A stretch of 64,000 bases of DNA from Pectobacterium carotovorum (GTDB lineage Bacteria > Pseudomonadota > Gammaproteobacteria > Enterobacterales > Enterobacteriaceae), in NCBI GenBank assembly GCA_016415585.1, contig CP066552.1, positions 1,550,001 through 1,614,000 of the forward strand, written 5' to 3'. How positions within the stretch are numbered: position 1 is the stretch's first letter; every line of letters begins with the position of its first letter. The notes below the pieces were generated by a model that was not told the DNA's origin, ran no database searches, and saw only the letters and a list, made by a program, of their open reading frames with translations. Below, piece by piece: positions 25,603-46,045 of this stretch. Position numbers and translations under genes: made by a program.

Positions 25603-25942
25603 TTTCGTGCGCTTAACATTTGTTTTTCTCTGCATGCTTTCCGTATGCGCACGACACAGGGGCGCTCAGTCGCCGCCGCCCTGTGAACCCAGGCTGTTTG
25701 GCGGGAAATGATGCCGCTTCGCGATTCCTTCGTCGTCAATGCTCTCCTGTTCGGACCGCCGCTGACGCGCCGGGAGCGCGTCACTGGCGGCCCGTAAAGA
25801 GGCGGCTTTCGGCGAAGGCACCGCGTAGCGGTACAATTTAGCGCCAAAAGCCAGGGTTCCAAGGGCGACGGCAATTGAGCCGCCCTTGGTCGGGCGCGTT
25901 CGGGGCGCTATTAGAAAAACGGTGAAGCTTGAGCGCACGAAA
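25603..25942. repeat. TTTCGTGCGC-bounded modular palindromic element, copy A
   Basis: The element is bounded by perfect 10-bp inverted ends, TTTCGTGCGC (25603-25612) and GCGCACGAAA (25933-25942). The left arm X holds a hairpin at 25655-25685 and the block TTTGGCGGGAAATGATGCCG. The core hairpin GACGCGC-CGGGA-GCGCGTC with outer CCGCC/GGCGG spans 25757-25790. The right arm Z holds the hairpin CCAAGGGCG...CGCCCTTGG (25859-25889). Arm X is shared with copy B and arm Z with copy C. It lies inside the mdtC-mdtD gap. No ORF of note. Confidence 0.8.
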
Positions 25943-25993
25943 TATCCCCATAAATAGCATATTAATTAGATAGCTAACGTTAATCCTATTCCG

Positions 25994-28900
25994 TCACGAT
26001 AGTGACAAATCCTTCCCCGGTGCTTTGCGCCGAATATTCCTCAGCTTGTCGAAAAACAGATACACCACCGGTGTGGTGTACAGCGTGAGGATTTGGCTCA
26101 TCACCAGACCTCCGACAATTGTGATGCCGAGCGGTTGGCGCAGCTCGGCACCATCACCGCTGGTCAACACCAGCGGCAGGGCGCCAAACAGCGCGGCTAA
26201 CGTGGTCATCATAATCGGGCGGAAACGCAGCAGGCAGGCCTGAAAAATGGCGTCCTGTGCGCTCAACCCGCCGCTGCGCTGTGCCACCAGCGCAAAATCC
26301 ACCATCATGATCGCGTTCTTCTTCACGATCCCAATCAGCAGCATGATGCCAATCAGCGCGACCAGACTAAACGGTGCGCCGAACCACTCCAGTGCCAGCA
26401 GCGCGCCCACGCCCGCCGAGGGCAGGGTAGACAGAATCGTCAGCGGGTGCACATAGCTCTCATACAACACGCCCAGCACGATATACACGGTGATAATCGC
26501 TGCCAGAATTAGCAACAGTTGGGAAGACTGCGACTGCTGGAACGCCTGTGCTGTACCGGAGAACTGACCGCGTACCGCTGACGGCACGCCCAGCGACGTC
26601 ATGGTTCTTTCTATCGCTGCCGTCGCGCTGGAAAGATCGGTGCCCTCCGGCAGGTTAAAAGATATCGTCGAGGCGGCAGACAGCCCCTGATGGTTCACCG
26701 AAAGCGGCGCGTTGATCGGCTTCCAACTGGCGAAATAAGAGAGCGGGATAGGCTTACCTTCGTTATTGATCACGAACATCTTGTTCAGTGAACTGACGTC
26801 TTGCGTGTAGGCGTCGTCCACTTCCATCACCACCTTGTATTGGTTTAGCGGCTGGTAAATGGTTGAAATCTGGCGCTGTCCGAAAGCGTTATTGAGTAGT
26901 GCGTTAGCGGCAGAAACGCTGATGCCGAGCTGCGCCATCGCATCACGATCGTAGGTGAGCGCCATTTCCGCGCCTTTATCCTGCTGATCGGAATTCACGT
27001 CGGCCAGCTCAGGGAGTTTGCTGAAAGCAGCACGAATCTTGGGTTCCCAGATGCGCAGCTCGCTCAAATCGTCAGACAGCAGCGTGTACTGGTATCCCGC
27101 GCTCGATTCCCGCCCGCCGATACGAATATCCTGCACCGGCATTAAAAACAGGTTGGCACCGGGTTCTTTTGCCAGCTTGACGCGCAGGCGACTGATCACC
27201 TGCTGTGCCGATACATCACGTTCGGACAGCGGCTTAAGTGAGATAAACATCGACCCGCTGTTGGTGCGCGATCCGCCGGTAAACCCGTTCACGTTATCCA
27301 CCGCAGGATCGCTGCTGACAATGGTCATGAAGTTCTGGAGTTTCACCGTCATAGCCTGAAAAGAAATGCTCTGGTCGGCCTGAATGAAGCCCATCAATCG
27401 GCCCGTGTCCTGCTCTGGGAAGAAGGTCTTGGGAATGCTGATGTACAGCCAGACGTTGAGCGCGATGGTGCCCAGCAGGAGCAGCAACACCCAGCGCGCA
27501 TGGTTGAGCACCCATTTCAGCGAGCGCCCGTAGCCTTGCTGCATGGCGAGCAATACACGATTAAAACCACGGGTGCGCGGCTGACTGCGTTTGGGAACGG
27601 CACGTAGCAGGCGGGCGCACAGCATCGGCGTCAGCGTCAGCGAGATCAGCAGCGAAATCATGATCGCTACCGACAGCGTGACGGCAAATTCGCGGAATAA
27701 TCGCCCCGGTAGCCCGTCCATCAGCAGGAGCGGGATGAACACCGCAACCAGCGACAGACTCATCGATAAGACGGTAAATCCCACTTCGCGTACGCCCTGA
27801 AGCGAGGCCTGTAGCGGCTTCATGCCGGCTTCGATGTGGCGGGAAATATTCTCCAGCACCACGATGGCGTCATCCACCACGAAACCGGTGGCAATGGTAA
27901 GCGCCATCAGCGACAGGTTGTTCAGACTAAAACCGCACAGATACATGGCCGCGAAAGTGCCGATAAGCGACACCGGGACGGCCAGCGCTGGAATGGCGGT
28001 TGCACGGGCTGAACGCAGGAACAGAAAGACGACCAGAATAACCAGCGCGACGGCGATAATCAGCGATTGCTCGACCTCCGCCAGCGAGGCGCGAATGGTG
28101 GGTGAACGATCCTGTGCGACGTCCAGCTGTATTTCGGCGGGCAGGCTGGCGCGCAGTTCCGGCATCGCGGCGCGGATATTGTCTACCGTGGTGATAATGT
28201 TGGCATCCGGCGCGCGGCGAATCATCACCAGAATCGCAGGCTTCGAGTTCGCCATCCCTGCGTTACGGGAGTTCTGCACCGAATCTTCTACCGTGGCGAC
28301 GTCGCTCAGGCGGACGGCTGCCCCGTTGTTGTAGTGGATAATCAGCGGCGCGTAGGCATCGGCGGTTTTGAGTTCATCGTTGGTTTGTATCTGCCAGCTT
28401 TTCTGGCTGTTTTCCACGTTCCCTAGCGGCTGGCGCACGTTCGCCTGCGCGATAGCCTGCCGCACCTCATCGAGGGAAATCCCCTGATTAAACAGCGCCA
28501 CCGGATTCAGCGCGACGCGCACGGCAGGCAGCGAACTCCCGCCGATGGAGACATCGCCAACGCCTTCCATCTGCGAAATTTTCTGCGACAGCTGGGTAGA
28601 GGCAAAGTCGTACAGCTGTCCCTGACTGTAGGTGTCCGAGGTCAGCGTCAGAATCATGACGGGGGCATCGGACGGATTGACTTTGCGGTAGGTCGGGCGG
28701 CTAGACATGCCGGACGGCAACAGATTCTGTGCCGCGTTAATGGCTGCCTGCACATCACGCGCCGCACCGTTGATATCCCTGTCGAGATTAAATACCAGAA
28801 TAACGCGCGTACTACCGAGTGAGCTGGTGGAAGTCATTTCGCTGACGCCCGCGATCCTGCCGAGTGCCCGCTCCAGCGGCGTGGCGACGGCAGAGGCCAT

Positions 28901-29074
28901 GGTTTCCGGCGAAGCACCGGGCAGCGAGGCGCTGACCGAGATCACTGGGAAATCCACCTGCGGCAGCGGCGACACCGGCAGCAGGCGGAAACCTAATACG
29001 CCACAGAGCGCGATGGCCAGCGTCAGCAGCAGGGTGGCGACGGGGCGGTGGATGAACAGGGCGAAGAACTTCAC
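25994..29074 (-). CDS. mdtC: RND efflux pump inner-membrane subunit MdtC
   Basis: MdtC combines with MdtB in a heteromeric RND proton-drug antiporter that exports bile salts, novobiocin and similar compounds through TolC. The product is 1026 residues, E. coli length, beginning [20 protein letters not shown]. It has the two-fold RND repeat: TM1, a large periplasmic loop, then TM2-6 including the proton-relay aspartates in [20 protein letters not shown], and the second half with [20 protein letters not shown]. Its start overlaps the mdtB stop by four bases (ATGA). Downstream the operon is interrupted by a palindromic repeat before mdtD. Confidence 0.96.
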
Positions 29075-32000
29075 TCGGTTTCTTCCTCCTGACGTGGCGC
29101 ACGGCGGAATCGCGTCGCCAGACGATCAAACAGCAGGTAGATCACCGGTGTGGTAAACAGCGTCAGGACTTGGCTCATGATCAGGCCGCCGACCATACAG
29201 ATCCCCAGCGGCTGGCGCAGTTCTGCGCCGACGCCAGTACTCAGCATCAGCGGCAGCGCACTCAGCAGCGCCGCCATCGTGGTCATCAAAATCGGCCGGA
29301 AACGCAGCAGACAGGCCTGATAAATAGCGTCATACGGTTTCATGCCCTGTTCTCGCTCCGCCGCCAGCGCGAAGTCGATCATCATGATGGCGTTTTTCTT
29401 CACGATCCCGATGAGCAAAATGATCCCGATAATGGCGATCACATCCAGCTCATTCCCCGCCATCATGAGCGCCAGTAGTGCGCCGACGCCCGCCGTTGGC
29501 AGCGTAGACAAGATGGTGATCGGGTGAATAAAGCTCTCGTATAGCACGCCAAGCACAATGTACATCGCGACAATCGCCGCCACGATGAGCCACACGGTGC
29601 TGCTCAGCGCTGACTGGAACGCCAGCGTACTGCCCTGAAAACGAGTGGTGATATCCGCAGGCAGGTTCATCTGCTGCTCGGCCTGCGTAATGGCATCAAC
29701 GGCTTCGCCCAGCGCATAGCCTTTAGCGACGTTGAAGGAGATTGTCGTTGACGGGAACTGGTCGATATGGTTGATCGCCAGCGGCCCCTGACGCTCCTCA
29801 ATGGTAGCAATACTGCTGAGCGGAATGGTTCCGCCGTCGCTGCTGATGAGGCGCACGTCATTCAGCGCGTCCAGACCGGTGTTGTTGGTCGTATCGTGCT
29901 CCAGCACCACGCGATACTGGCTGGCCTGCGTATAGATGGTGGAAACCAGTCGCTGACCAAAGGCATTGTACAGCGCGCTATCGACCTGTGACATTGTAAT
30001 ACCCAGACGGCTAGCGCTGTCGCGGTTCACGTTGACGTAGGCGACCGCTGCGCCGTCTTGCCAGTCGCTGCTGACATCCTCTAGCTGCGGCAGTTTTTTC
30101 AACTCGGTCATCAGCTTTGGCACCCACTCGCTCAGCTCGTCCAGCGACATCGCCTGCAAGGTAAACTGGTATTGCGTGCGGCTAATCTGGGTGTCGATGG
30201 TGAGATCCTGCACCGGTTGCAGATACAGCTGAATGCCGGGGATCTGGGCAGTTTGCTGTTGCAGACGACTGATGATCTCTGGAATACGTTCGCTGCGTTC
30301 ACTGAGCGGTTTCAGGTTGATTTGCAGTCGGCCGCTGTTCAGCGCGGCGTTTGTGCCGTCAACACCGATGAACGAGGACACGCTTTCCACCGTCGGATCT
30401 TTCATGATGATGGATGCGACGCGCTGCTGGCGGTCGGCCATATTGCTGAACGAGACCGTCTGCGGTGCCTGCACGGTGCCCTGAATGATGCCGTTATCCT
30501 GTATCGGGAAGAAGCCTTTCGGGATCCAGATATAGAGCAAAACTGTTAGCAGCAACGTACCGAGTGCGACGCTGAGTGTCAGCCACGGATGATTCAGCAC
30601 CTTGCGCAGCCAGACGCCGTAGGCATCAATCAGGCGAGTGAAGAAACGTTCGCTGGCGCGGGTAAAGCGGTTCTGTTTACGCAGTGACTGATGGCTCAGC
30701 ATTCGTGCGCACATCATGGGCGTCAGCGTGAGCGAAACGACGGCGGAAATCAGAATAGATACCGCCAGCGTGACGGCGAATTCGCGGAACAAGCGTCCGA
30801 CGATATCGCCCATAAACAGCAGCGGGATCAGCACCGCGATGAGCGAGAAGGTCAGAGAGATAATGGTGAAGCCAATTTCTCCCGCGCCTTTCAACGCTGC
30901 GTTAAGCGGTTTCTCTCCTTTTTCGATATAGCGGGCGATGTTTTCAATCACTACGATGGCATCATCCACCACGAAACCAGTGGCGATGGTGAGCGCCATG
31001 AGCGTCAGGTTGTTGATGGAGAAACCGAGAAAGTACATGGCGGCAAAGGTGCCAATCAGCGACAGCGGCACGGCAATGCTGGGGATCAGCGTAGCGACGG
31101 CGTTACGCAAGAACAGGTAAATCACCATCACGACCAGCGCGATAGCCAGCAGCAGCTCAAACTGGACGTCTTTCACCGAGGCGCGAATGCTGGTGGTGCG
31201 ATCAGTCAGCGTGGTGACTTCGACAGAGTTCGGCAGGCTGGCTTTTAGCGCAGGCAGCATCTTGCTAATGCTGTCCGTAGTCGTGATGACGTTGGCACCC
31301 GGCTGGCGCTGAACGTTGATAATGATCGCCTGCTGCCGATTCGCCCAGGCACCGAGATGAATATTCTCGGCGGCCTGTTCGATAGTCGCGACATCCTGAA
31401 GCCGCACTGGCGCGCCATTTTTCCACGCAACAATTAGCTTGCGGTAGTCATCAACGGATTTCATTTGATCGTTGGCGGAGAGCGTGACCGAGCGCGTTGG
31501 ACCATCCAGACTCCCTTTGGCGGAATTCACGTTGGCGGCGGTAATGGCGGTGCGGATCGTTTCGCTGGTTAGGCCGTACGCCGCCAGCGCAGGGGCGTTC
31601 AGCCTTACCCGCACTGCCGGACGTTGGCCACCGGCTAATGACACCAGACCGACGCCCGCCACCTGTGAGATTTTCTGCGCGATGCGGTTGTCCACCATGT
31701 CCTGCACCTGTGTCATCGACATGGTGCTGGAGGTGACGGCCAGCGTCATAATCGGCGGATCTGCTGGATTTACCTTGCTGTAGGTCGGTGGATAGGGCAG
31801 ATCGTTAGGTAGCAGGTTGCTGGCCGCATTGATAGCGGCCTGCACATCCTGTTCGGCGACGTCCAGCGATAGCTCAAGCTGGAATTGAAGCGTGATAACG
31901 GATGCGCCGCCTGCGCTCTGCGTCGACATCTGTTTTAGTCCAGACATCTGGCCGAACTGCCGTTCCAGCGGCGCGGTAATCGCCGAGGTCACCACGTCGG

Positions 32001-32193
32001 GGCTGGCACCGGGATACAGGGTAATGACCTGAATCGTCGGATAATCGACTTCGGGCAGTGCGGACACTGGCAGTGCCCGATAGCCGATAATACCGGCGAG
32101 CAGAATGGCGATCATCAGCAGCGTCGTGGCGACCGGACGCAGGATAAACAGGCGCGACGGGCCACCGCCGCTGGCTGGAACGGTATCCTGCAT
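29071..32193 (-). CDS. mdtB: RND efflux pump inner-membrane subunit MdtB
   Basis: MdtB is the second RND protomer of the MdtBC heterotrimer (normally two MdtB to one MdtC) and carries the proton pathway. The 1040-residue protein shows [20 protein letters not shown], the TM4 aspartate pair in [20 protein letters not shown], and the C-terminal [20 protein letters not shown]. It is collinear with E. coli MdtB. Its start codon overlaps the mdtA stop by one base, and it overlaps mdtC by four, so mdtABC are translationally coupled. Confidence 0.96.
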
Positions 32194-33428
32194 CAGGATT
32201 TCTCTCCAGCGATTGCGGGCGTTTTCTCCGTCAACGCTGAGGGAATGACTTCCACTTTCGCGCCTTCGGTCAGGCGGTCGATACCGTCAGTCACAACCTG
32301 AACATTGGCGTCCAGCCCGGCGGTCACCACAACCAACTGGCCGTACTGAATGCTGGTGGTAACCTGACGCTTACTCACTTCATTTTTATCATTCAGAATC
32401 CAGACAAAGCGGCCTTCATTGCCCATTTGTACGGCGGCGGATGGCGCGACGACGGCATTTTTCAGCGTGTCGACCTTCATGCGGATATTCACGAACTGGT
32501 TCGGGAACAGGGCATCGTCCAGATTGTCAAAACGCGCCTTGAGCTTGATTGTGCCCGTGGTGGTGTCGATCTGGTTGTCCATGCTCAGCAGGATGCCCTG
32601 CGAGAGTTTCTTTTGATTAGCGCGATCCCAGGCTTCTACCACGGGCGGCTGACCTGATTTCTGCGCACTCAGAATCGTGGAGATTTCCGCTTCCGGTACG
32701 GTAAAGACCACATCAATAGGGTAGGTCTGCGTAATCACGACAATGCCATTGGTGTCGCCGCTGGTGATGTAATTCCCCACATCGACCTGTTTTAAACCGA
32801 TCCGACCGCTGATAGGGGCGGTGATTTTGCTGTAATCCAGCTGAAGCTGTGCGCTGGCGACGGCACCTTCATCGGCTTTTAGCGTGCCTTCCGCCTGACG
32901 AACGGCGGCGGTCTGCGCATCCAGTTCTTGACGGGAGATCAGGTTGGTTTTCACCAACTGCTGATAGCGCGCTAAATCCTGTCGGGCGTTAGCCAGTGAG
33001 GCCTGATCTTTTGCCAACTGTCCCTGAGCCTGCGTCAGCTCAACCTGAAAAGGACGCGGGTCGATTTCCGCCAGCAGCTCGCCAGCCTTAACCTGTTGCC
33101 CTTCCTGAAAGTGGAGCGCCATCAACTGACCATTCACCCGGCTGCGCAGCGTCACGGTGTTGGCCGCCGTCACAGTGCCTAAACCTGACAGATAATAGGG
33201 CACGGAAGCGGATTGCGTCATCGCAGCCTGCACGGGGGCCAACGTGCGCATAGCAGCGCGGCGTCCACCGCCATTGCTGTTGCTTCCCGAATGTGACGTA
33301 CGGGCGGCATGCTGTTCACTCGTGCCAGAGGCGGCAGGTGGTGTCTGGGTAAAATGGCGCCAGATCAGTACGGCAATAGCGATAACGGCGGCAAGTACCA
33401 GCAGGCCTCGGATACGTTTGGCATTCAT
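32193..33428 (-). CDS. mdtA: RND efflux periplasmic adaptor MdtA
   Basis: MdtA is the membrane-fusion protein joining MdtBC to TolC. The 411-residue product has an N-terminal signal/anchor ([16 protein letters not shown], about residues 9-24) and a Ser/Asn/Gly linker. The lipoyl domain begins with [21 protein letters not shown] coiled-coil hairpin ([20 protein letters not shown] ... [20 protein letters not shown]) and beta-barrel and membrane-proximal domains follow. It is the first gene of the operon. A BaeR box is expected in front, but the best match (around 33575-33592) is weak. Part of a palindromic repeat end lies in the leader. Confidence 0.95.
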
Positions 33429-33477
33429 AGTGATGGATTACTCTCTCCAGGTTGCACGGGAAGCACGGCGTAGCCGC

Positions 33478-33505
33478 ATACTTCACGCTGCATGTGCGTT
33501 GGCTG
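33478..33505. repeat. Solo end fragment of the 17210-type repeat
   Basis: GCATACTTCACGCTGCATGTGCGTTGGCTG repeats, with two or three changes, the left end of the element at 17210. It lies in the mdtA leader, 50 bases from the start codon. Confidence 0.6.
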
Positions 33506-33610
33506 TCATACCCAGCACGTTATTAGACCAATGGCCTTATTTTACTAGTTTAAACAAGGGATGCCGGACAAAAATGAAGGAATTATGGAAGATATGTCAG
33601 GGTTTGTAGG

Positions 33611-33642: not shown

Positions 33643-33673
33643 AGAGATAAAAATTTTATAACGTGATGAAGGA

Positions 33674-35128: not shown

Positions 35129-36094
35129 ATGTCAGTATCAGATACCACACGTGAGCTTGGACGTTCTGGGATCGTGGTTCCACCTTTTTCTTTCGGCGGT
35201 AATGTCTTTGGCTGGACGGTTGACGAATCGACGTCGTTCAGCCTGTTGGATACGCTGCTGGCGCACGGGCTGAATTTCATTGATACCGCCGATGTTTATT
35301 CGCGCTGGGCTCCCGGCAATCAGGGCGGTGAATCTGAAACCATCATCGGTAACTGGCTGAAAAAAAGCGGCCAGCGTGACAAGGTCATTCTCGCCACCAA
35401 AGTGGGTATGGATTTAGGCGATGGCAAGAAAGGGCTGTCTCCCCGCTATATTCGACAGGCGGTCGAGGCCTCATTACAGCGTTTGCAAACTGACTACATC
35501 GATCTCTATCAGGCACATACTGACGACAAAGATACACCGCTGGAAGAAACGCTGGCCGCGTTTGATGAGCTGATTAAAGAGGGCAAAGTGCGCGCGATTG
35601 GGGCGTCTAACTACAGTGCGACGCGTCTGGCGGAGGCGCTGAAAGTCAGTAAAGCCAATCATCTGGCGCGTTATGAAACGCTGCAACCGGAATACAATTT
35701 GTACGATCGGCAGGGTTATGAGGCCGCGCTAGAGCCGTTGGTGCGTGAGCAAGGGATTGGAGTCATTAGCTACTATTCGCTGGCTAGCGGGTTTCTGTCA
35801 GGCAAGTATCGTCAGCCGAAGGATGCGTCGAAAAGCGCACGCGGGCAGGGCGTAGTAGAAAAATACCTGAACGAGCGCGGTCGCACCATTTTGGAAACGT
35901 TGGATAGCGTGGCGAATGCGCATCAGACGACGCCATCGCAGGTCGCGTTGGCCTGGCTGATCGCACGTCCGAGCATCACTGCCCCAATCGCCAGTGCAAC
36001 GTCGCTGGAGCAGGTTGCTGAACTGGCGGGCGCGACGCGGCTGGTGCTTCCAGCAGAAGATATCGAACTGTTGAATCGCGCGAGTCGCTATTAG
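35129..36094 (+). CDS. Aldo/keto reductase
   Basis: A 321-residue NADPH-dependent aldo/keto reductase with the (beta/alpha)8 fold. The catalytic tetrad is present: Asp and Tyr in NFIDTADVYS, Lys in ILATKVGMD, and His in DLYQAHTDD. The cofactor-binding end contains WLIARPSITAPIASATS. It resembles the YajO/YghZ-like group with broad carbonyl substrates, and the true substrate is unknown. The start at 35129 is chosen over a GTG at 35123 because AAGGAGAG lies at the right distance. It is a single gene divergent from nupC. Element copy B of the palindromic repeat follows its stop. Confidence 0.9.
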   Translation: MSVSDTTRELGRSGIVVPPFSFGGNVFGWTVDESTSFSLLDTLLAHGLNFIDTADVYSRWAPGNQGGESETIIGNWLKKSGQRDKVILATKVGMDLGDGKKGLSPRYIRQAVEASLQRLQTDYIDLYQAHTDDKDTPLEETLAAFDELIKEGKVRAIGASNYSATRLAEALKVSKANHLARYETLQPEYNLYDRQGYEAALEPLVREQGIGVISYYSLASGFLSGKYRQPKDASKSARGQGVVEKYLNERGRTILETLDSVANAHQTTPSQVALAWLIARPSITAPIASATSLEQVAELAGATRLVLPAEDIELLNRASRY

Positions 36095-36153
36095 GAAATT
36101 GCCTTCTTCGCAGGTGTTTCTTCATTACACTTTATATGCGGGTGTGGAAATGG

Positions 36154-36443
36154 TTTCGTGCGCCATCATACCGCCATTTTCATGCTACCTCGTAGCACGC
36201 GCCCGACATAGGGGGCTACGCCAGCCCCCTATGAACCCCGGCTTTTGGCGGGAATTATGCCGCTTACGCGGTGCCATCGGTGTTCATGACCGCTAATCGA
36301 GCCACCAGTGACGCGTTCCCGACGCGGCACTGGTTTTCGCGACGTCCTGTCGCTCACTCGGCGGTCAAGCCCACCGCTGCATAATTTTTACGCCAGATAA
36401 CGGCAAGATACTCATACATTTACAACATTTATCGCGCACGAAA
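36154..36443. repeat. TTTCGTGCGC-bounded modular palindromic element, copy B
   Basis: Bounded by GGTTTCGTGCGC and GCGCACGAAACC, perfect inverted ends of 12 bp. Arm X has the hairpin ATAGGGGGCT...AGCCCCCTAT (36208-36232) and the block TTTTGGCGGGAATTATGCCG shared with copy A. The core hairpin CCAGTGACGCG-TTCCCGA-CGCGGCACTGG spans 36305-36333. The right arm is the reverse complement of the left arm of copy C. It fills most of the gap between the aldo/keto reductase and the EIIB gene. Confidence 0.8.
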
Positions 36444-36489
36444 CCGCCTCAACAGTGGCATAAAAATGTGACTAAGAGACAGCGAACAT

Positions 36490-36831
36490 TTAGCGCGCTT
36501 CTGCTCCATCATCCTCAAACCAGGCGGCTAACTCGCGCCGCAGGTTATCCGACTGGGTGCCGAAGATGGCCTGCACCTGATGGCCGACGATGATCACGCC
36601 GATAGCGCCCAGTTTTTGTAAGCTGTCGCTGTTAACCAGCCGCAGGCTGTGAACCTCGACCCGCAGGCGGGTGATACAGGCATCCAGACTGACGATATTT
36701 TCTTTGCCGCCAAAGGCGGTTACCAACTGCTGCAAGTTTTCTTTGTCTAGCGGTGAAGCGATTTCAATCTCGGTGATTTGCTTACCCAACATTGATGCGA
36801 ACAATTTCCGAAAATTGTGAATCTTGCCCAT
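36490..36831 (-). CDS. Stand-alone PTS EIIB domain protein (glucose family)
   Basis: A 113-residue single-domain EIIB of the glucose/glucoside PTS family. The phospho-accepting cysteine is at about residue 52 in the conserved NIVSLDACITRLRVEV. The rest of the fold follows (LQKLGAIGVIIVGHQVQAIF). It lacks any EIIC or EIIA domain, and none is encoded nearby, so it must act with a permease encoded elsewhere or serve as a regulator. GTG at 36840 and ATG at 36831 are both in frame. GAGGTG is positioned for the ATG. It lies between copies of two palindromic repeat families and before ganB on the same strand, but has no evident link with galactan use. Confidence 0.85.
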   Translation of the reverse strand: MGKIHNFRKLFASMLGKQITEIEIASPLDKENLQQLVTAFGGKENIVSLDACITRLRVEVHSLRLVNSDSLQKLGAIGVIIVGHQVQAIFGTQSDNLRRELAAWFEDDGAEAR

Positions 36832-39043: not shown

Positions 39044-39053
39044 CGTTCTCTCC

Positions 39054-39343
39054 TAAACGGGTTGTCAACGCGTTGAATACGGTTTGCGTGTTCGAGATAG
39101 CTGGCAATGTGCTTATGCGGCGATGATGGGTAGATCGTAAAGACGCTGTGAATACATCCCTGTACGCTCGGGTTGCGCGGATATGAATCTCATCCCTGAG
39201 ATTCACCCTTGCAGGGCCGCCGCAAGCGACGTTCAAAAACGTTCCTGACGTTTTTGTCCATGGCGCAAACGCTTTACTCTTCTATCCCATTATCGCCGCT
39301 CTTGTTCAGTTAAACGGGTTGTCACGCTCTGAATACGGTTTAC
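39054..39343. repeat. Direct duplication of about 34 bp flanking a repeat in the ganA-ganB spacer
   Basis: TAAACGGGTTGTCAACGCGT and the following TGAATACGGTTTGCG at 39054-39088 recur with few changes at 39311-39343. One copy abuts the ganB ribosome site and the other the ganA stop. The 222 bases between them carry a double-hairpin repeat. The pattern suggests that the spacer was duplicated when the repeat was acquired. Confidence 0.65.
39205..39257. repeat. Double-hairpin repeat, copy 4
   Basis: Hairpin 1 is CGCCGC-AA-GCGACG (39218-39231, one mismatch). Hairpin 2 is AAAAACGT-TCCTG-ACGTTTTT (39235-39255). It lies between ganA and ganB, where it could influence the relative expression of the two genes. 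Confidence 0.65.
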
Positions 39344-39346
39344 GAC

Positions 39347-40561
39347 TTACTTAAACGCTTTGATGGAAGGCAGTACGTTGCCTTTGCAGTCGAACAGCGC
39401 TTGGTTTTCCCGTGCGTTGCCTTCTTTCCATTCGTCGTTGTTGTATTTCATACCCGCTTTCGTGGCCCAGGTTGCACCGAGGGTAGGCAGCCAGATTGGC
39501 TCCCAATAGAAGACGCCTTTGCCGCGCTGGTTGGGTACGTTGATGACGCTTTGCATCAAATCGTGCAGGTAATTGGCCTGACCCTGAACGGAAGCAGGGT
39601 AACCGCCGGCATCCAACTCTTTTTGCTGGAAGCTGTTTTCCGCGTTATCGCAGTTTTCCAACGTGTAAGCATAGGCGGCTTCAACCACGATGATGTCTTT
39701 ATTGTAGCGTTTGGTGACGTCGTTCATGTTGTACTGCAACGCGCTGATGGGGCCGTTCCAGTAGGTGTAGAACGAGGCACCGATGACATCAAACGGGACG
39801 TTACGTTTGACGATTTCATCGAACCACCAGATAAAGGTGTCGTTTTTGGTGCCTTCCGCCAGATGCAGCATGATCTTGACGTTATTCGCGCCCTGTACGT
39901 CCTTCACGCCCTGAATACCGGCTTTCAGCATCGCCGCGAGGCGATCGAATTCGCCGCCACCCTGACCCCAACTTTTTCCTTCCGGCCACAGCATCCCGCC
40001 GTTCAGTTCGTTACCGATCTGCACCATATCCGGCATGACGCCCGCTTTCTGGAATTCGCTAATGGTGGCTTTGGTGTAGTCATGTAGGGCAGTCGTGAGC
40101 TGCGCTGCGTTTAGGCCAGACCAGGCTTTAGGCTTGTTTTGGTGGGCCGGGTCGGTCCAGAAATCGCTGTAGTGGAAATCCAGCAGCACTTTCATTCCGT
40201 TCGCTTTGGCGCGTTTAGCCAGCGCCAGCGTGGTCGCCAGATCGTTGTTACCGCCGCCGTAACCGTTGCCCGCTGCATCTTTCGGATCGTTCCAGATGCG
40301 CAGACGGATATAGTTAATGCCGTTCTCTTTCAGGATCAGCATGGCATCTTTCTGTTTGCCATGTTCGTCATAAAATTTTCCGCCGTGCTTTTCCACCTCG
40401 TTCAGCATGGAAATATCCGCGCCTTTAATGAAATCGGCAGGGACGTTCGTCAACTTATTGATCGTCACATTCTCTGCGGCATACAGGGTTTGCGGCAGGG
40501 AGAAGGTCAACAGGCCAGTTGCCAGCATGGCGGCCATCAGTACGCGTTTTTTCATTTTCAT
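39347..40561 (-). CDS. ganA: GH53 endo-beta-1,4-galactanase GanA
   Basis: GanA hydrolyses beta-1,4-galactan side chains of pectin. The 404-residue precursor has a Sec signal peptide (MKMKKRVLMAAMLATGLLTF, likely cut after TLYA at residue 28). So it acts in the periplasm, or outside if exported further. The GH53 barrel shows DFIKGADISMLNEVEKHGG, YIRLRIWNDP, LLDFHYSDFWTDP, the acid/base Glu at about 185 in QIGNELNGGML, and the nucleophile Glu at about 294 in VVEAAYAYT. AGGAA precedes the start. It follows ganG by 35 bases in the ganEFGAB operon. Confidence 0.94.
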   Translation of the reverse strand: MKMKKRVLMAAMLATGLLTFSLPQTLYAAENVTINKLTNVPADFIKGADISMLNEVEKHGGKFYDEHGKQKDAMLILKENGINYIRLRIWNDPKDAAGNGYGGGNNDLATTLALAKRAKANGMKVLLDFHYSDFWTDPAHQNKPKAWSGLNAAQLTTALHDYTKATISEFQKAGVMPDMVQIGNELNGGMLWPEGKSWGQGGGEFDRLAAMLKAGIQGVKDVQGANNVKIMLHLAEGTKNDTFIWWFDEIVKRNVPFDVIGASFYTYWNGPISALQYNMNDVTKRYNKDIIVVEAAYAYTLENCDNAENSFQQKELDAGGYPASVQGQANYLHDLMQSVINVPNQRGKGVFYWEPIWLPTLGATWATKAGMKYNNDEWKEGNARENQALFDCKGNVLPSIKAFK

Positions 40562-40596
40562 TTTACGTTCCTGGAATAGGTACAGATGTTGAGTTA

Positions 40597-41445
40597 TTAC
40601 CCTTTGGTTCCGCCTGAGGTCAGGCCGGAGACAAAGTACTTTTGCAATGAAAGATAAAGAATGGCGACCGGTACCGCGATCAGCACGGCTCCCGCGGCGT
40701 AGGTGGTGTAGCTGGCTCCCATCTTCTGTGAGACCAGGTTGTATAGCCCGATGGGCAGCGTGTACTGATCCGGCGTGCGCAGGATGGTGCTGGAGAGAAT
40801 GAAATCACCCAGCGGGCCGGTAAACGAGAACAGAGCTATCACCGCGATGATCGGTTTGGACAGCGGCATAATGATCTCGATAAAGATGCGGAAGTTACCC
40901 GCGCCGTCCATACGCGCGGACTCATCCAGATCTTTCGGAATGGCATCCAGATAGCCTTTCATCAGATAGGTATTCATCGGGATCATGCCGCCGACGTAAA
41001 CCAGCACCAGCGCAATATGGCTGTTCACCAGCCCCAGCATCTGCGCTAGTACGAAGATGGCGATCAGCGCGGAGAACTGCGGGATCATCTGCAAGAGTAG
41101 AAACAACATCAGCCCATTCTGGCGGCCGCGAAAGCGGAAACGAGAGAAGGAATACGCGGTGAAACTGACGCTGACTAGCGTCAGAATCATGGTCAGGAAG
41201 CTGATTTTCATCGAGTTCCAGTACCATGCCGCGTAGTCAATCTGGCCGTTAAACAGCTCCTCATAGTGAATAAAGGAGAAGTTATCTGGGATGATCGAGG
41301 TGTTGAGCAGGCTGTTGCCGGGGTTCAGCGACGCGCCAACCGTCCAGATCAGTGGATAAATAATGATGATTGCCACGATCGTCAACAGCAGGTAGGTCAG
41401 GCCGAGTTTGATAAAATTCTGGCGTTTAACGCTGTGCTTTTTCAT
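40597..41445 (-). CDS. ganG: Galacto-oligosaccharide ABC transporter permease GanG
   Basis: GanG is a MalG-type inner-membrane permease of 282 residues with six helices. The EAA loop that contacts the ATPase is visible as LDAIPKDLDESARMDGAGNF (about residues 166-185). The N-terminal periplasmic loop (SLNPGNSLLNTSIIPDNFS) is typical of MalG relatives. It pairs with GanF, with a 12-base gap between the genes, and takes substrate from GanE. Energy comes from GanK. The family relation is clear, and the galactan specificity is inferred from the operon. Confidence 0.92.
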   Translation of the reverse strand: MKKHSVKRQNFIKLGLTYLLLTIVAIIIIYPLIWTVGASLNPGNSLLNTSIIPDNFSFIHYEELFNGQIDYAAWYWNSMKISFLTMILTLVSVSFTAYSFSRFRFRGRQNGLMLFLLLQMIPQFSALIAIFVLAQMLGLVNSHIALVLVYVGGMIPMNTYLMKGYLDAIPKDLDESARMDGAGNFRIFIEIIMPLSKPIIAVIALFSFTGPLGDFILSSTILRTPDQYTLPIGLYNLVSQKMGASYTTYAAGAVLIAVPVAILYLSLQKYFVSGLTSGGTKG

Positions 41446-41457
41446 CTGCGCGCTTTC

Positions 41458-42762
41458 CTATGCCATGTTGTCTTGTTTGAAGGAGTTGGTGGCGCGGAAC
41501 TGCCACAGTGCGACGCCCACGACAAAAATCGACAGCAGAATGGTGATGCTGGCTGCGATCGCATATTGGGAAGAAGACATGGTCAGCTTATAAATCCAGG
41601 ACACCAGAATATCCGTCCCGCCCGCGTTGGAGCCGATCACCGCCGGTCCGCCGTTGTTGAACAGATAGATGATGTTGAAATTATTAAAGTTGAACGTGTA
41701 CTGCGTGATGATGATCGGTGCAATGGAGTAGAGCACCAGCGGCAGCGTGATGGTGGTCAGCTTGTACCAACTGCTGGCGCCGTCAATCGTTGCGGCTTCG
41801 TACAAATCGTCAGGAATCGCCTGCAATACGCCGGTGGTCATGGCGAACACAAACGGGAAGCCTAACCAGGTTTGCATCAGAATCAGCGCGGTCTTGGCCC
41901 AGAACGGGTCGGTCATCCACGCTTTAGGCTCAATCCCCAATGCGGCCAGAATGCCGTTATTAATCACGCCAAACGTTTCGTTAAACATCCCCGCGAAGAC
42001 CAGAATAGTGACGAAGCCCGGCACTGCCCACGGCAGGATCAGGATGGTGCGGATCAGCGGCTTGAAACGCAGCCCTTTCTGGTTCACCAAAATCGCCAGC
42101 AGGATGCCTACGGCGCACTGGAGTGTGGTCGCAATCAGCGTCCAAATCACCGTCCATTGCAGCACGTCAAAGAACGTTGAGCGCCAGAGATCGAGCCGGA
42201 AGATGTTGATAAAGTTCGTCATCCCTACCCAGTCGACCAGCTTGGCGGGCGGCGTGTGGTAGAGGTTGTAATTGGTAAAGGCGATGGAAAAACCGAAAAT
42301 AATCGGGAAAACCACGACAAAGACCAGCAAGATGAAGCCGGGGGTGATCATCAGATAAGGGAAGCCTTCGCTCAGCAGCATCTGATATTGCTTCTTCACG
42401 CTATTCAACGGCAGACCTTTATCGCGTCTGGCACCGCACGCGTAGGCATCGCGCAGGCTCAAATAGTAAACGCCGACGCCAAAGGCGGCGACGATCACGC
42501 TGATAATGCCTTTTGCCAACAGAAAAATAGAGTGATCGCGCGGCAGCTCAGTGCCCAGCGTGATGAGCCCCCAGGCACCGTTCCGCAGGAAATCATGGAA
42601 TATGCCGATGAAGCAGACCATGACGATAAAGAAAAGTGCGCCTTTGACGAACTGGCGATTATAAATCTGTCCGAGTCCGGGGATGAGCGCCAGCAATACA
42701 GCCGTTCTGGCGTGGCGACATCCTCTCTCTTGTGGCGTAAGGCCGCTGGCGTTGACGGTCAC
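41458..42762 (-). CDS. ganF: Galacto-oligosaccharide ABC transporter permease GanF
   Basis: GanF is the MalF-type partner permease. An N-terminal extension of about 130 residues carries extra helices (AVLLALIPGLGQIYNRQFVKG, ALFFIVMVCFIGIFHDFL). The transport core follows, with the EAA loop LQAIPDDLYEAATIDGASSW. A long frame opens at 42849, but the GGAGGT at 42773-42768 is correctly placed for a GTG start at 42762. An ATG at 42774 is the alternative. The gap to ganE (about 100 bases) contains a stable stem-loop with a T run, reminiscent of the malE-malF gap. Confidence 0.88.
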   Translation of the reverse strand: MTVNASGLTPQERGCRHARTAVLLALIPGLGQIYNRQFVKGALFFIVMVCFIGIFHDFLRNGAWGLITLGTELPRDHSIFLLAKGIISVIVAAFGVGVYYLSLRDAYACGARRDKGLPLNSVKKQYQMLLSEGFPYLMITPGFILLVFVVVFPIIFGFSIAFTNYNLYHTPPAKLVDWVGMTNFINIFRLDLWRSTFFDVLQWTVIWTLIATTLQCAVGILLAILVNQKGLRFKPLIRTILILPWAVPGFVTILVFAGMFNETFGVINNGILAALGIEPKAWMTDPFWAKTALILMQTWLGFPFVFAMTTGVLQAIPDDLYEAATIDGASSWYKLTTITLPLVLYSIAPIIITQYTFNFNNFNIIYLFNNGGPAVIGSNAGGTDILVSWIYKLTMSSSQYAIAASITILLSIFVVGVALWQFRATNSFKQDNMA

Positions 42763-42784
42763 ATCTACCTCCATTTTCTTAAAA

Positions 42785-42840
42785 ACATGGGTATCCCTCA
42801 CATCCCGAAACCGATTGGGGGAGAAATAAGGGATCCCATG
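42785..42840 (-). terminator. Stem-loop with T run in the ganE-ganF gap
   Basis: ATGGGTATCCCT (42787-42798) pairs with AGGGATCCCAT (42829-42839) with one bulged base. On the transcribed strand the stem is followed by GTTTTT. It could act as a partial terminator or as a 3' stabiliser for ganE mRNA, letting the binding protein be made in excess over the permeases. Confidence 0.55.
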
Positions 42841-42863
42841 TTGACCCACGGTGGTGCGGGGGA

Positions 42864-44096
42864 TTACTGGTTACTGTGGTTAGCTTCGATCTGCATTTTG
42901 ATAATCTTCACGGCAGATTCCAGCGCCGCTTTGGTGTCCTGCTTGCCCGTTACGCTCAGTTGCAGCGCGCTGTTCGCAGGTGTCCAGACTTCCTGCATTT
43001 CCGGTACGCTCGGCATAGGAACGGCATAGCCAGACTGGATCGCGACAGCACGGGATTTTTCGTCATCCTTAATCAGCGGATCGTCAACCAGCGCCGCGAT
43101 AGGTGGGATTTCACCGGTTAACTGGAAGCGAATTTTGGCGTACTCAGGCTGATTGATGAACTCAATGAATTTCTGCGCTAGCGCTTTGTTTTTAGAGTAG
43201 GTGGAGATGCTGTAGCCTTTCACGCCCAGCAGCGAACGCGGATGCTCGCCGTTTGGCAGCAGCGGCAGTGGGGCTACACCATAGTTTACGCCTGCGTTTT
43301 TGTACGGCTGGAACGCCCACGGACCGGTAATCACGGCAGCGGCTTTTTTCTCGGTAAACAGGGAATCGATGGCGTTAGCGCCGGTTTCACCGACGATGCC
43401 CGGTGGGAACAGGCCATCGGCATAGAATTTCTTGATGTAGTTGACGGCATCGATAGTGGCTTGTTTATCCAGACCGATGTCTTTTACGTTTGGTGAACCG
43501 TTGCTGTTCTGCCCGAAAATGTAGCCACCCATCCCAGCGATGACGCCATAGGCGTAATAAATTTCATCAAACTTCGCCAGCAGGCCATAGCGGCCTTCCG
43601 CACGTTGCTGTTTGGAGAAGGTGAACAGATCGTCAAATTTTTCCGGCGGCTGTGGCATCAGGTCTTTGTTGTACACCAGCACGGTGGTTTCAACCGCTTT
43701 CGGCACGCCGTACAGCTTACCGTTATAGGTTTGTGCTTCCAGCGCTGGTTTGGTGAAACTCGACAGGAACGTCTGGTCCAGCTTCAGTTCGCTGATCAAT
43801 CCCTGAACCACGGCGGTACCCACCTGATCGTGTGGCATCACGATCACATCCGGGCCGATTCCTGCTGGGCCATCCAGACGGAGTTTCTCAATCTGCTGCG
43901 CGTAGGGCGTTTCCAGCACTTTGATTTTGACATTATTCTGTTTTTCAAAGGCTTTGATCGCGTCGGCGATGCCGTCGGATTTCTTGATATCTTCCCATAC
44001 CAGAAGTTCTTTGTCGGCTGCCAGCGCTGATTTGCTGAGTACGCCGGTGATACCCAGTGAAATCATAATGACGGTGGTCAGTGTTTTCATTTTCAT
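42864..44096 (-). CDS. ganE: Galacto-oligosaccharide-binding protein GanE
   Basis: GanE is the periplasmic solute-binding protein of the Gan ABC importer, of the maltose-binding (SBP family 1) type. The 410-residue precursor has a signal peptide (MKTLTTVIMISLGITGVLSK, cleaved after SALA). The mature protein begins ADKELLVWEDIKKSDGI and contains the family motif GPDVIVMPHDQVG and KKAAAVITGPWAF. Two adjacent ATG codons occur at 44099 and 44096. GAGGA suits the second. It is the first gene of ganEFGAB and is divergent from ganK. The 490-base divergent region contains three candidate GanR operators. Confidence 0.92.
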   Translation of the reverse strand: MKMKTLTTVIMISLGITGVLSKSALAADKELLVWEDIKKSDGIADAIKAFEKQNNVKIKVLETPYAQQIEKLRLDGPAGIGPDVIVMPHDQVGTAVVQGLISELKLDQTFLSSFTKPALEAQTYNGKLYGVPKAVETTVLVYNKDLMPQPPEKFDDLFTFSKQQRAEGRYGLLAKFDEIYYAYGVIAGMGGYIFGQNSNGSPNVKDIGLDKQATIDAVNYIKKFYADGLFPPGIVGETGANAIDSLFTEKKAAAVITGPWAFQPYKNAGVNYGVAPLPLLPNGEHPRSLLGVKGYSISTYSKNKALAQKFIEFINQPEYAKIRFQLTGEIPPIAALVDDPLIKDDEKSRAVAIQSGYAVPMPSVPEMQEVWTPANSALQLSVTGKQDTKAALESAVKIIKMQIEANHSNQ

Positions 44097-44189
44097 CATT
44101 AGTCCTCAAAGCCCTGGTGGGCCAATCATGGTCGGAAATTGTCGCGTACTTTCCCGTTTTCACCGTTTTTGCTGTCCCTGTGCGATGTT

Positions 44190-44205
44190 GGTGTAACGTT
44201 ACATC
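44190..44205. promoter_or_regulatory. Candidate GalR/GanR-type operator in the ganE promoter region
   Basis: TGTAACGTTACA (44192-44203) is a perfect palindrome within GGTGTAACGTTACATC. The half-site is one base shorter than the usual gal operator (GTGTAAnCGnTTACAC), so affinity is uncertain. It lies about 95 bases before ganE. Confidence 0.45.
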
Positions 44206-44308
44206 ACACGGCAGTACACCGAAGGGAATGAGGCATCTAACAGTACACGTTGTTTGGCGATCGTCGCTGTGTGGCGCTTGACGCTTTGTTGCGCGTTTTC
44301 CACAAACT

Positions 44309-44324
44309 AGGATAACGGTTACAC
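44309..44324. promoter_or_regulatory. Candidate GanR operator, middle of the ganE-ganK region
   Basis: AGGATAACGGTTACAC has a perfect right half (CGGTTACAC) and a poorer left half. Its centre is 106 bp from the next operator, similar to the spacing of looping operators in the E. coli gal system. Confidence 0.45.
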
Positions 44325-44414
44325 CAATGGCGATTACATTAAGCAGAGTGCGCCACGTCTGCCAGCGAAACATGTAAAGGCTGTGATCTTATGCACAAAA
44401 GTAACCCCCTGTTT

Positions 44415-44430
44415 GTGCAAACGGTTACAC
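44415..44430. promoter_or_regulatory. Candidate GanR operator in front of ganK
   Basis: GTGCAAACGGTTACAC closely matches the GalR/GalS operator consensus. TATATT at 44439-44444 could be the -10 of the ganK promoter, so a repressor here would block it. Confidence 0.6.
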
Positions 44431-44589
44431 CATGCTGTTATATTGCAATTATGACCAGCGTGCAGGTAAATCTGGCCGGATGCTAATGCGTCTGGAAGGG
44501 CTACCGAGCCATTTTGAGTAGACGACCACTGGGCCGTTGTGACTCAGCGCTTATATCCTGAAAAGCAAAATTATCAAGAGGTTACCGTT

Positions 44590-45672
44590 ATGGCGTCGAT
44601 CCAGTTGGATAGAGTGAGTAAGCATTTTGGCAAAACGATTACGCTTCACGATGTGAATCTGACGATTGCGGATGGAGAGTTCGCCGTTTTTGTTGGGCCG
44701 TCTGGCTGTGGTAAGTCGACGTTGCTGAGAATGATTGCCGGGCTGGAAGATGTCACGGGCGGTGAAATCATGATTGATGAGGCCGTGGTGAATGATGTTG
44801 CCCCCGCTCACCGTGGTGTGGCGATGGTGTTCCAGTCTTATGCGCTGTACCCGCACATGACCGTCGCTGAGAATATGGGCTACGGCCTGCGCGTGAATGG
44901 CGTTCCGAAAGACCAGATTAAGCACCAAATCGAGATGGTGGCGAAGACGCTGCAACTGTCTCACCTGCTGGAGCGTAAACCGAAAGAGCTATCGGGTGGG
45001 CAGCGCCAGCGTGTGGCGATAGGGCGCGCCATCGTACGTAACCCGAAAGTGTTCCTGTTTGATGAGCCGCTGTCGAACCTGGATGCAGAGCTGCGCGTGG
45101 ATATGCGATTGCACATTGCCAAACTGCATCAGGAATTGAAAACGACGATGATCTACGTGACGCACGATCAGGTCGAAGCCATGACGCTGGCCGATAAAAT
45201 CGTGGTCATGAATTACGGCAAAGTCGAGCAGGTAGGATCGCCGATGGAGCTTTATTATCATCCGGTTAACCAGTTTGTTGCGGGTTTTATCGGCTCGCCA
45301 AAAATGAACTTCCTGCCTGCGCAGGTCATCGATTGGACGCCGGATAGCCTGACGGTGAATGTTGCTGAGCAGTTGCAGCTTGAGCTGCCGATTCGCACTG
45401 GCGAACTGACTGTTGGCAGCACGATAACGCTGGGGCTGCGGCCGGAACACGTGTCACCGGAAGGTGAGGGGATTCGCCTGTCATTCGGTTGTGAAGTCGT
45501 CGAACGTTTAGGTAACAGTACCTACCTGTTCGGCCAATGCTGTGGCATCGATAACTTCAAACTTCTGCTGGCGGGCGACAGTGCCTTCAAGCCTTATGAA
45601 CATATTGAGGTCTTCTTCTCCCCGAATAACTGTCTGGTGTTCAACGCTGATGGCCTGCGTATCAGCGCGTAG
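44590..45672 (+). CDS. ganK: Sugar ABC transporter ATPase GanK (MalK/MsmX type)
   Basis: GanK energises the GanEFG importer. The 360-residue protein has Walker [10 protein letters not shown], the signature [15 protein letters not shown], Walker [13 protein letters not shown], and the switch His in [14 protein letters not shown]-terminal OB-fold regulatory domain of the MalK kind follows ([14 protein letters not shown]). A longer frame starts at 44539, but the ATG at 44590 ([15 protein letters not shown]) has GAGG in front and fits the family. It is transcribed away from ganE. Its promoter region is shared with that of ganEFGAB and carries GanR-type operators. Confidence 0.92.
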
Positions 45673-45719
45673 TTAAGTTTTTGAATCGCTTGATCTGAAT
45701 AGCAAAACCCCTACTAAAC

Positions 45720-45738
45720 AGCGCCCGCGAAGGGCGCT
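45720..45738 (+). terminator. Stem-loop after ganK
   Basis: AGCGCCC-GCGAA-GGGCGCT is a strong GC stem 47 bases after ganK. No proper T run follows on either strand, so termination is uncertain. Copy C of the modular element begins about 60 bases later. Confidence 0.4.
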
Positions 45739-45797
45739 CAACCTTAATTGCTGCTGATAAAATCATCTGTCTCTCAATATTCCGCTGTTTTGGGTTT

Positions 45798-46045
45798 CTC
45801 TGGCGTAAAAAATTGCGCTGAGGTGGGCATGGCCGTCGGGTGAGCCGCATGGATGCGGCGAAAGGCAGTGCCGCGTCGGGAACGCGTCACTGCCGGTCCG
45901 AATATCGGCCACGAACGCCGAAGGCATCGCGTAGCGACGCAATTAGCGCCGAAAAGCCAGTGGTCAAGGCGCTGCGGCGATTGAGCGCGCCTTGTCGGGC
46001 GTGTGGTGAAATCACAGATTTGCTCGGTAGTTAACACGCACGAAA
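45798..46045. repeat. Modular palindromic element, copy C (left end eroded)
   Basis: The right end CGCACGAAA (46037-46045) keeps the terminal repeat. The left end is not recognisable. The left arm Y (CTGGCGTAAAA ... GGTGGGC ... GTGAGC) is the reverse complement of the right arm of copy B. The core hairpin GGCAGTGCCGCGT-CGGGA-ACGCGTCACTGCC spans 45864-45894. Arm Z with the hairpin CAAGGCGC...GCGCCTTG (45965-45994) matches copy A. Confidence 0.75.

Follow-up and report, generated by a model that had tools for sequence, protein, structure and literature searches.

A dispersed palindromic repeat family in Pectobacterium with exchangeable arms and interiors inverted in place at some sites

The window analyzed here, a 64,000-nucleotide stretch of Pectobacterium carotovorum DNA, contains three palindromic sequences, A, B and C, which most likely represent one new family of MITE- or YPAL-like elements in which in-place inversion is the unusual trait. 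A sequence-only reading of the window had proposed that the three share a repeat. This is borne out, with a changed assignment of the arms, as they belong to a hairpin-rich, non-coding, intergenic family dispersed over at least 27 loci of this genome, A, B and C included. Our preferred explanation, held with moderate confidence, is a single non-autonomous palindromic element that would have spread as a MITE-like mobile sequence and now be mostly immobile. The RNA opposite to the orientation of our family model may be selected as a folded element at mRNA 3' ends, and inversion and arm exchange would need no dedicated enzyme, arising from template switching during replication or from recombination that involves the inverted ends or different copies.

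Among the matches listed, the repeat is present in 12 of 12 genomes of the genus and 0 of 8 others, and wider sampling of the bacterial family recovers it in 6 of 119 genera, which places it in Pectobacterium and a few sister genera. Copy B has no match in the plasmids, phages and E. coli genomes searched. In syntenic stretches from 25 genomes of the genus, an element or fragment lies at site A in 25, at site B in 17 and at site C in 23, with the C copy cut in two stretches (G005 and G025) that span 29 kb against 40 kb for the others; the sole further match in the rest of these stretches is weak, 79 nt long and found in 3 genomes. The elements, about 250-290 bp long, may or may not carry outer ends and an apical domain of ~73 nt, and have the general traits of the MITE class (short, non-coding and dispersed, some copies having inverted ends). 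The copies compared are those fetched, including 60 taken among the matches listed from six genomes, and the copies named individually are among the pattern-scan matches listed.

The intergenic sites stay occupied across species, near the 3' ends of genes, while their contents turn over. Gene context was classified for 58 of 83 sites from naive open reading frames, giving 36 convergent, 22 tandem and no divergent sites, compared with 8 convergent, 19 tandem and 8 divergent among the 35 spacers of at least 60 bp in the window. In the 22 tandem cases, the model strand runs antisense 17 times and sense 5 times.

Table 1 Parts of copies A, B and C, with positions in the window
Feature	Position	Strand	Evidence
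Copy A left half: X end (TTTCGTGCGC), arm hairpins, 5' half of core	25603..25771	+	nhmmer, family model 1-166 on + (L095:2004-2172)
Copy A right half: second X end (X'), reversed	25763..25942	-	nhmmer, family model 1-178 on - (L095:2164-2343)
Copy B left outer end, degenerate, weak relative of CTGTCTCTTAGTCACATTTTTATGC	36114..36153	+	End scan, 14/25 positions (the threshold itself, reached by 7/166 shuffled flanks)
Copy B body: X end, arm hairpins, rod with apical stem, Y arm to ACGCC and a few bases	36154..36406	+	nhmmer, model 1-257 (L096:2055-2307)
Copy B Y tail, specific to its site, with right end GCGCACGAAA	36407..36443	+	Tail common to inverted alleles at site B
Copy B right outer end, inverted (...GTGACTAAGAGACAG)	36444..36482	-	End scan
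Copy C: X-core-Y, reversed	45791..46045	-	nhmmer, model 1-256 on - (L097:1992-2246)

Three arm types shuffled around one core had been proposed; two ends, X and Y, suffice. One half of the model matches the X parts of B and C and each half of A alike (Table 1), which led us to reject a third type. Copies B and C share the order X-core-Y and lie in opposite orientations, and copy A, with the order X-core-X', looks like what is left of a head-to-head pair after fusion; such pairs occupy site A in five related genomes (G024, G027, G028, G032 and G008). Copy C has its X end at 46045, and its Y side shows no matching inverted end. Arm exchange itself stands, and is explained by in-place inversion, by head-to-head pairs with deletion, and by sites whose contents resemble copies from other sites. 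The usual order X-Y is fixed, with exceptions such as A, and no described MITE among those compared matched.

Both orientations occur at 20 of 33 comparable sites (19 of 32 once 22 paired copies and 8 duplicates are left out); these counts and the nearest-copy counts below exclude site B, where a stretch boundary coincides with the right flank, and the later-fetched L109 site. At some sites the interior is inverted in place between kept TTTCGTGCGC/GCGCACGAAA ends. Allele statements for sites A, B, C, L108, L109, L350/L363 and L370/L233 were made by eye. On this basis, both flanks are kept up to the element ends between opposite orientations at site B, the left flank is kept up to TTTCGTGCGC at L350/L363, and the right flank is kept between L370/L091 and L233/L333. 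Conservation at L350/L363 and L370/L233 is confined to that one flank, the spacer differing on its other side between orientations. In addition, tails outside the family consensus are common to both orientations at two sites, with a median score of 29.5 against 10 for other sites. When the 22 paired and 8 duplicate copies are left out and same-site copies in the same orientation are set aside, 31 of 102 copies, spread over six sites, have as their nearest copy the opposite orientation at the same site. The remaining 71, each of which also has a partner in the opposite orientation at its site, resemble a copy from another site as much or more, a figure inflated by same-site copies with a missing flank that were counted as other. 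Many flips may thus be replacements rather than inversions.

The 71 copies bear on a possible but unlikely alternative, in which a MITE with Tn5/IS50-like ends (CTGTCTCTTATACACA) inserted repeatedly, in either orientation, at the same hot spots, and lineage sorting mimics flips. Outer ends are indeed far commoner than in shuffled flanks, the left one being found in 88 of 166 copies against 7 of 166, and the right one, TTTGTGTATAAGAGACAG, in 43 against 1. The outer ends, CTGTCTCTTAGTCACA / TATACACA, show some likeness to the mosaic end of Tn5/IS50-type elements of the IS4 family, from which the family differs in that 78 of 166 copies score below our left-end threshold; ends taken from the best copies agree with the Tn5 mosaic end at 17 of 19 positions on the right and 16 of 19 on the left. 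Two single copies are suggestive, L315 with flanking 9-mers alike at 7 of 9 positions and L107 with an 8-base repeat in its flanks that is out of register by a single base, and the L108 site carries a YPAL/RU-2-like element instead in six other genomes. Against repeated insertion stand the 31 copies nearest to a same-site partner, the non-consensus tails common to both orientations, and the absence of an overall 9-bp duplication (identity 0.281 vs 0.255, p = 0.26, 17 sites). The Tn5-type domain PF14706 was found in none of 25 genomes of the genus; among 14 control genomes it was detected in E. coli. An excess of 7-bp flanking identity has p = 0.0005, but is one of 12 sizes tried, and none of the sizes 3 to 14, each taken as fixed over the 17 sites, yielded a convincing duplication. 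Variable target duplications of 3-26 bp are a trait of YPAL/RU-2. The check for empty sites that had been suggested produced no clean empty allele, as L108 and L109 hold other contents or a different flank; at site B the dld gene stands in place of the element in 7 of 25 genomes.

Compensatory changes preserve a nine-helix structure of the palindrome, 93% of cells being paired. Both sides change in 40 of 58 pairs, the covariation score is 0.384 against 0.148 in shuffles, and 315 cells are compensated on both sides, where shuffles predict 84 and slid controls give 23-46. The covariation noted at the outset lies far above both kinds of control, but its reading as proof of a selected structure is unsafe by itself, since template switching also homogenizes inverted arms, according to the available parts of PMC8794818 and PMC8604942. 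Further pair types are barely above shuffles (82 vs 75, with 18 of 500 shuffles reaching 82), and 6 of the 7 pairs in helix 1 never vary, so that covariation says nothing about that helix.

Because pair-count cells are non-independent, wobble states were counted once per site; over 168 copies at 59 sites, A-C outnumbers G-T by 71 to 15 on the modelled strand (p about 1e-6), by 57 to 15 without the top pair, and the ratio in an unpaired control is 1.05. This asymmetry speaks for selection on RNA from one strand rather than on a DNA palindrome alone, and, as far as sequence comparison can indicate, points to RNA from the strand opposite to the model orientation. That RNA would come from the - strand for copy B, which lies in the + model orientation, and from the + strand for copy C, which lies in the - orientation. 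Copy B has fold z-scores of -5.5 on + and -6.0 on -, and copy C folds little better than shuffles. A point against the strand proposed is that cUUCGg-type loops occur on the model strand.

These data also weigh on a purely DNA-level account, which we judge rather improbable, whereby template switching between inverted repeats keeps arms complementary and inverts spacers, with no selected RNA. In the accessible portion of PMC8604942, template switching at short inverted repeats is reported to homogenize arms and also to invert spacers, the inversion requiring arms longer than 9 bp. The ends here are 10-bp perfect repeats, above that limit, and spacer inversion and arm homogenization at arms of about 10 bp are points of likeness; the cases reported there from yeast genes are 2-5 bp, in contrast to ~230-340 bp at many dispersed sites here. 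Template switching can also create and maintain hairpins, as part of PMC8794818 describes. However, the wobble bias with its balanced control does not fit this account, and neither do the unpaired positions, which are purine-rich on one strand (the unpaired core is 70% pyrimidine on the model strand). Moreover, when copies from one site and in one orientation are compared at 95% identity or more, 122 stem changes are one-sided and 2 two-sided, so compensation is usually not simultaneous; at 75-85% identity there are 293 one-sided, 685 two-sided Watson-Crick and 76 other two-sided changes.

A tyrosine or serine recombinase flipping TTTCGTGCGC-type ends as phase-variable 3'-end or terminator switches would account for inversion between short inverted ends at the B, L350/L363 and L370/L233 sites and for both orientations at 20 of 33 sites, but is very unlikely given that the closest opposite pair at one site is 97.1% identical, with no near-identical flipped pair among the copies compared, that the flips observed all separate different species, each represented by a single genome, and that only 26 of 166 copies have a right end resembling GCGCACGAAA within 150 bp.

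An extension of our preferred explanation, the mobile element with a selected RNA, is improbable but worth stating: the genus may carry dozens of slowly flipping mRNA 3'-end modules, under one-strand selection, whose orientation picks the transcript bearing the fold. Interchangeable-arm elements at fixed 3' sites would then decide which neighboring transcript carries a selected RNA fold. The preferred explanation itself meets the difficulty that frequent inversion is hard to reconcile with a host-mRNA function if one RNA strand matters. Positions are conserved while orientation and arms turn over, and the family offers natural data on in-place inversion and arm exchange of long imperfect palindromes in bacterial chromosomes. 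Strand-wise wobble tolerance provides a simple test between RNA selection and palindrome homogenization, which covariation alone cannot separate.

The sequence-only reading had recognized no named element, and we concur: A, B and C have no Rfam match at the gathering cut-off or at E <= 5, and no described MITE among those compared fits, ISfinder lying outside this comparison. The repeat appears to be undescribed so far, and would add a family to well-studied plant pathogens. No description was found in the literature searched, a search outside which lie most subscription papers and the original YPAL paper, and a word search of the available text of PMC4710047, on P. atrosepticum small RNAs, finds no repeat, palindrome or MITE wording. 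YPAL/RU-2, as described in the parts available of PMC2229807 and PMC2759123, is the closest in kind, being intergenic, not A+T-rich, equipped with internal inverted repeats, and present in Erwinia carotovora too; its RNAz score is 1.00 (PMC2267715, in part). At ~168 bp it is shorter, whereas the Pectobacterium family has two distinct ends and, in some copies, perfect terminal inverted repeats, and in-place inversion and arm exchange go unmentioned for YPAL in the available text of these three papers. Local alignment of five copies (L096, L108, L114, L097 and L094) to the 168-nt RU-2 scores 16-20 against shuffled maxima of 22-26, and we rejected identity. ERIC/IRU/RU-1, a dispersed, MITE-like enterobacterial intergenic palindrome of 127 bp in the accessible part of PMC2229807, resembles the family in these respects, but scores 16-20 against shuffled maxima of 21-26 for five copies aligned to the 127-nt RU-1, and differs in that RU-1 starts and ends with tata (PMC2759123, in part).

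We also considered the apical insert as an independently mobile element and rejected this, as 6 of 6 matches in its own genome fall inside known copies and across all 25 distinct flanks at the loci examined by eye its apical position and its orientation do not vary. In viral contigs, a 20-base segment taken from the insert has 0 matches. The outer hairpin, searched as a 29-base pattern with up to 3 mismatches, has 0 matches in its own genome, the hairpin being too degenerate for such a pattern. The YPAL-like alleles at the L108 site are divided equally, three per orientation, and RU-1-like repeats are present elsewhere in the window.

The three intergenic palindromes A, B and C belong to a structured, dispersed family that occupies stable 3' sites in both orientations and with exchanged arms. 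Their positions in the sequence-only reading were confirmed (table), but of its scheme of three arm types shuffled around one core (A as X-core-Z, B as X-core-Y', C as Y-core-Z) only the exchange of arms around a core holds, with two end types in place of three. When searched with a profile of X-Y copies, where X and Y are the two end types and X-core-Y the model orientation, B and C match in opposite directions, and both halves of A match the 5' half of the model, again in opposite orientations. B and C therefore share one arrangement but point in opposite directions; A has the form X-core-X'. At site A, as matched through its flanks in other genomes of the genus, two elements stand head to head in G024, G027, G028, G032 and G008, and A resembles a fusion, made at the apex, of the first element's left half with the second element's right half. 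Other deletions are found at this site in G006 and G011, and X-X' palindromes occur at a second site in G011 (locus L383) and G023 (L382).

Features in the window and, where named, in an extracted locus
Feature	Position	Strand	Match
Copy A	25603-25942		
Copy B	36154-36443	+	model 1-257
Copy C	45791-46045	-	model 1-256
Site B	36094-36490		
ERIC/RU-1-like repeat	15560-15760		score 36, shuffled maximum 26
ERIC/RU-1-like repeat	17150-17350		score 55, shuffled maximum 25
ERIC/RU-1-like repeat	33430-33600		score 40, shuffled maximum 21
Fourth ERIC/RU-1 candidate, rejected	8080-8280		score 20, shuffled maximum 21
CyaR	17502-17586		Rfam, above gathering
TPP riboswitch	13879-13975		Rfam, above gathering
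Yersinia sRNA Ysr224	39094-39194	+	Rfam, sub-threshold: 44.3 bits, gathering 70, E 2e-7
IS110-family transposase gene (G029)	L275:9886-10971	-	DEDD_Tnp_IS110; NCBIfam NF033542, 'IS110 family RNA-guided transposase'

The window covers bases 1550001-1614000 of the single-contig genome (4.74 Mb). Searching that genome with A and B returned 42 and 33 matches, which resolve into 27 loci, all of which were extracted and aligned. The element is present in 12 of 12 same-genus genomes (19-50 matches per genome among the matches listed), in 6 of 119 genera sampled from the wider GTDB family and in none of eight genomes searched from other families; nor was it found in the plasmids, phages or E. coli genomes searched. 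Among the matches listed from a pattern scan, in which many other hits were chance ones lacking a family-model match, the family model matched Pectobacterium, Brenneria, Samsonia, Candidatus Symbiopectobacterium and one assembly labelled Serratia marcescens (1001295B_180824_A7; L118, L139, L142, L151, L159, L199 and L228). This label may be wrong, or the element may have been transferred past its usual genera.

In model orientation, the element opens with the X end TTTCGTGCGC and a short hairpin, followed by GCGCCCGAC, which can pair with TTTCGTGCGC as helix 1; because 6 of its 7 pairs are invariant, covariation is uninformative for this helix. Next come a strong hairpin whose sequence varies (the Z and X stems of the sequence-only reading), then a rod that opens GGCG..AAATTATGCCGC and closes GCATAATTT..ACGCC, with an apical stem of GCCAGTGACGCG/CGCGGCACTGGC or, alternatively, CTTGCGACACG/CGTGGCGCAAG, and finally the Y arm with a site-specific tail that sometimes ends in GCGCACGAAA. 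Ends of the GCGCACGAAA type lie at most 150 bp away in 26 of 166 copies, the left outer end resembles CTGTCTCTTAGTCACATTTTTATG in 88/166, and the right end resembles TTTGTGTATAAGAGACAG in 43/166. Some copies carry an extra apical domain of ~73 nt, inserted into one and the same loop and in a single orientation wherever it was observed.

A structure of nine helices was evaluated on 41 representatives sharing less than 88% identity: 93% of its cells are paired, and 40 of 58 pairs show change on both sides. Compensated cells number 315, as compared with 83.8 in shuffles and 23-46 in slid controls; further pair types are in only slight excess (82 versus 75.3, with 18 of 500 shuffles reaching 82). 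The proposed covariation lies far above its controls, but it is no proof of selection, because template switching homogenises inverted arms (PMC8604942, PMC8794818). Copies that share site and orientation and are at least 95% alike differ in their stems by 122 one-sided and 2 two-sided changes, whereas those 75-85% alike differ by 293 one-sided and 685 two-sided ones. It therefore seems that unpaired changes appear one at a time and are lost or compensated afterwards.

Wobble pairs were counted at 42 pairs predicted on both strands (168 copies, 59 sites, each state once per site). On the model strand, A-C outnumbers G-T by 71 to 15, or 57 to 15 without the most extreme pair, whereas in unpaired columns the corresponding transitions are balanced (ratio 1.05; p about 1e-6). 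Since an A-C pair corresponds to G-U on the complementary strand, it is the strand opposite the model that tolerates wobble. Taking the union of the two structures gives the same direction more weakly (68 versus 42), and the plus-strand structure by itself gives 35 versus 28. In the core, 70% of the unpaired positions are pyrimidines on the model strand, and therefore purines on the opposite one, where the consensus energy is also lower (-70.1 versus -64.0). The UUCG-type loops on the model strand count against the opposite-strand reading.

Syntenic stretches centred on the middle of the window and at most 40 kb long were compared from 24 other genomes of the genus, two of which gave 29 kb. 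Site A holds a whole or partial element in 25/25 genomes (remnants of 107 nt in G006 and 137 nt in G011), site B in 17/25 and site C in 23/25, the flanks of C not being found in the other two; outside these sites the sole further match is weak (79 nt, three genomes). By eye, a D-lactate dehydrogenase gene, assigned by a family scan of the G002 copy, lies at site B in 7 of the 8 genomes without the element there, and the eighth lacks the left flank. At site C in G029, a transposase gene (table) stands within a copy, so an IS110 element may target the repeat. In some genomes a third hairpin-like sequence with GGGAACCTC replaces the family at two sites (L294, L299, L301 and L386, by eye); it did not align with RU-2 in L294, L299 or L301.

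With 60 further copies from six genomes, 224 copies were grouped into sites through flank matching, and both orientations occur at 20 of the 33 sites having at least two copies (19 of 32 once 22 head-to-head copies and 8 duplicates are removed). Opposite alleles at site B agree in both flanks as far as the TTTCGTGCGC/GCGCACGAAA ends (e.g. G024, G005). L350 and L363 have a common left flank as far as TTTCGTGCGC, and L370 and L091 have their right flank and end in common with L233 and L333; in each case the interior is reversed and the other-side spacer differs, and in the latter the reversed part includes a tail absent from the family consensus. Tail scores between opposite orientations have a median of 29.5 at the L091 site versus 10 (maximum 20) at other sites, and are 31 versus 12 at site B, where the comparison maximum of 60 arises from a set containing B-site singletons. 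Simple inversion at every site would nevertheless be hard to reconcile with median same-site identities of 0.842 in opposite and 0.924 in the same orientation (other sites, 0.791), or with the finding that the same-site opposite partner is nearest for just 31 of the 102 copies compared, which come from six sites, A and C among them. At site B, G028 combines apex halves of different types. Three processes therefore all seem to operate: elements invert, are replaced by sequence resembling that at other sites, and form pairs with accompanying deletion.

By naive gene calls at the 58 of 83 sites with flanks long enough, element spacers are 36 convergent, 22 tandem and 0 divergent; window spacers of at least 60 bp are 8, 19 and 8, respectively. 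Of the 22 tandem spacers, 17 have the model strand antisense to the genes. Such placement fits an element that is tolerated at mRNA 3' ends, or has a use there, and is kept away from promoters. We hypothesize that it spread long ago as a MITE-like element and is now inherited mostly vertically, that its orientation and arms changed when inverted ends, or separate copies, underwent template switching or recombination with one another, and that its fold persists because one strand's RNA is important, perhaps as a structure at the 3' end. The outer ends agree at 16-17 of 19 positions with the ends of Tn5, which serves as a lead only; a Tn5-type transposase domain is absent from all 25 genomes searched. 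Element flanks gave no convincing target duplications, and alleles at the L108 site and a second site gave no clean empty site.

No description of the family was found in the literature searched. It is most likely a MITE/YPAL-like palindromic family, unusual in its in-place inversion and arm exchange. YPAL/RU-2 is nearest in kind, yet the RU-2 sequence printed in Table 1b of PMC2759123 aligns with the element no better than with shuffles; RU-1/ERIC likewise gave no alignment above shuffles. At the L108 site, six other genomes of the genus carry YPAL/RU-2-like alternative alleles, which align to RU-2 in one orientation (L290, L291, L307) or the reverse (L293, L302, L304), with scores of 81-118 versus shuffled maxima of 26-33. 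The window also contains ERIC/RU-1-like repeats and Rfam matches (table).
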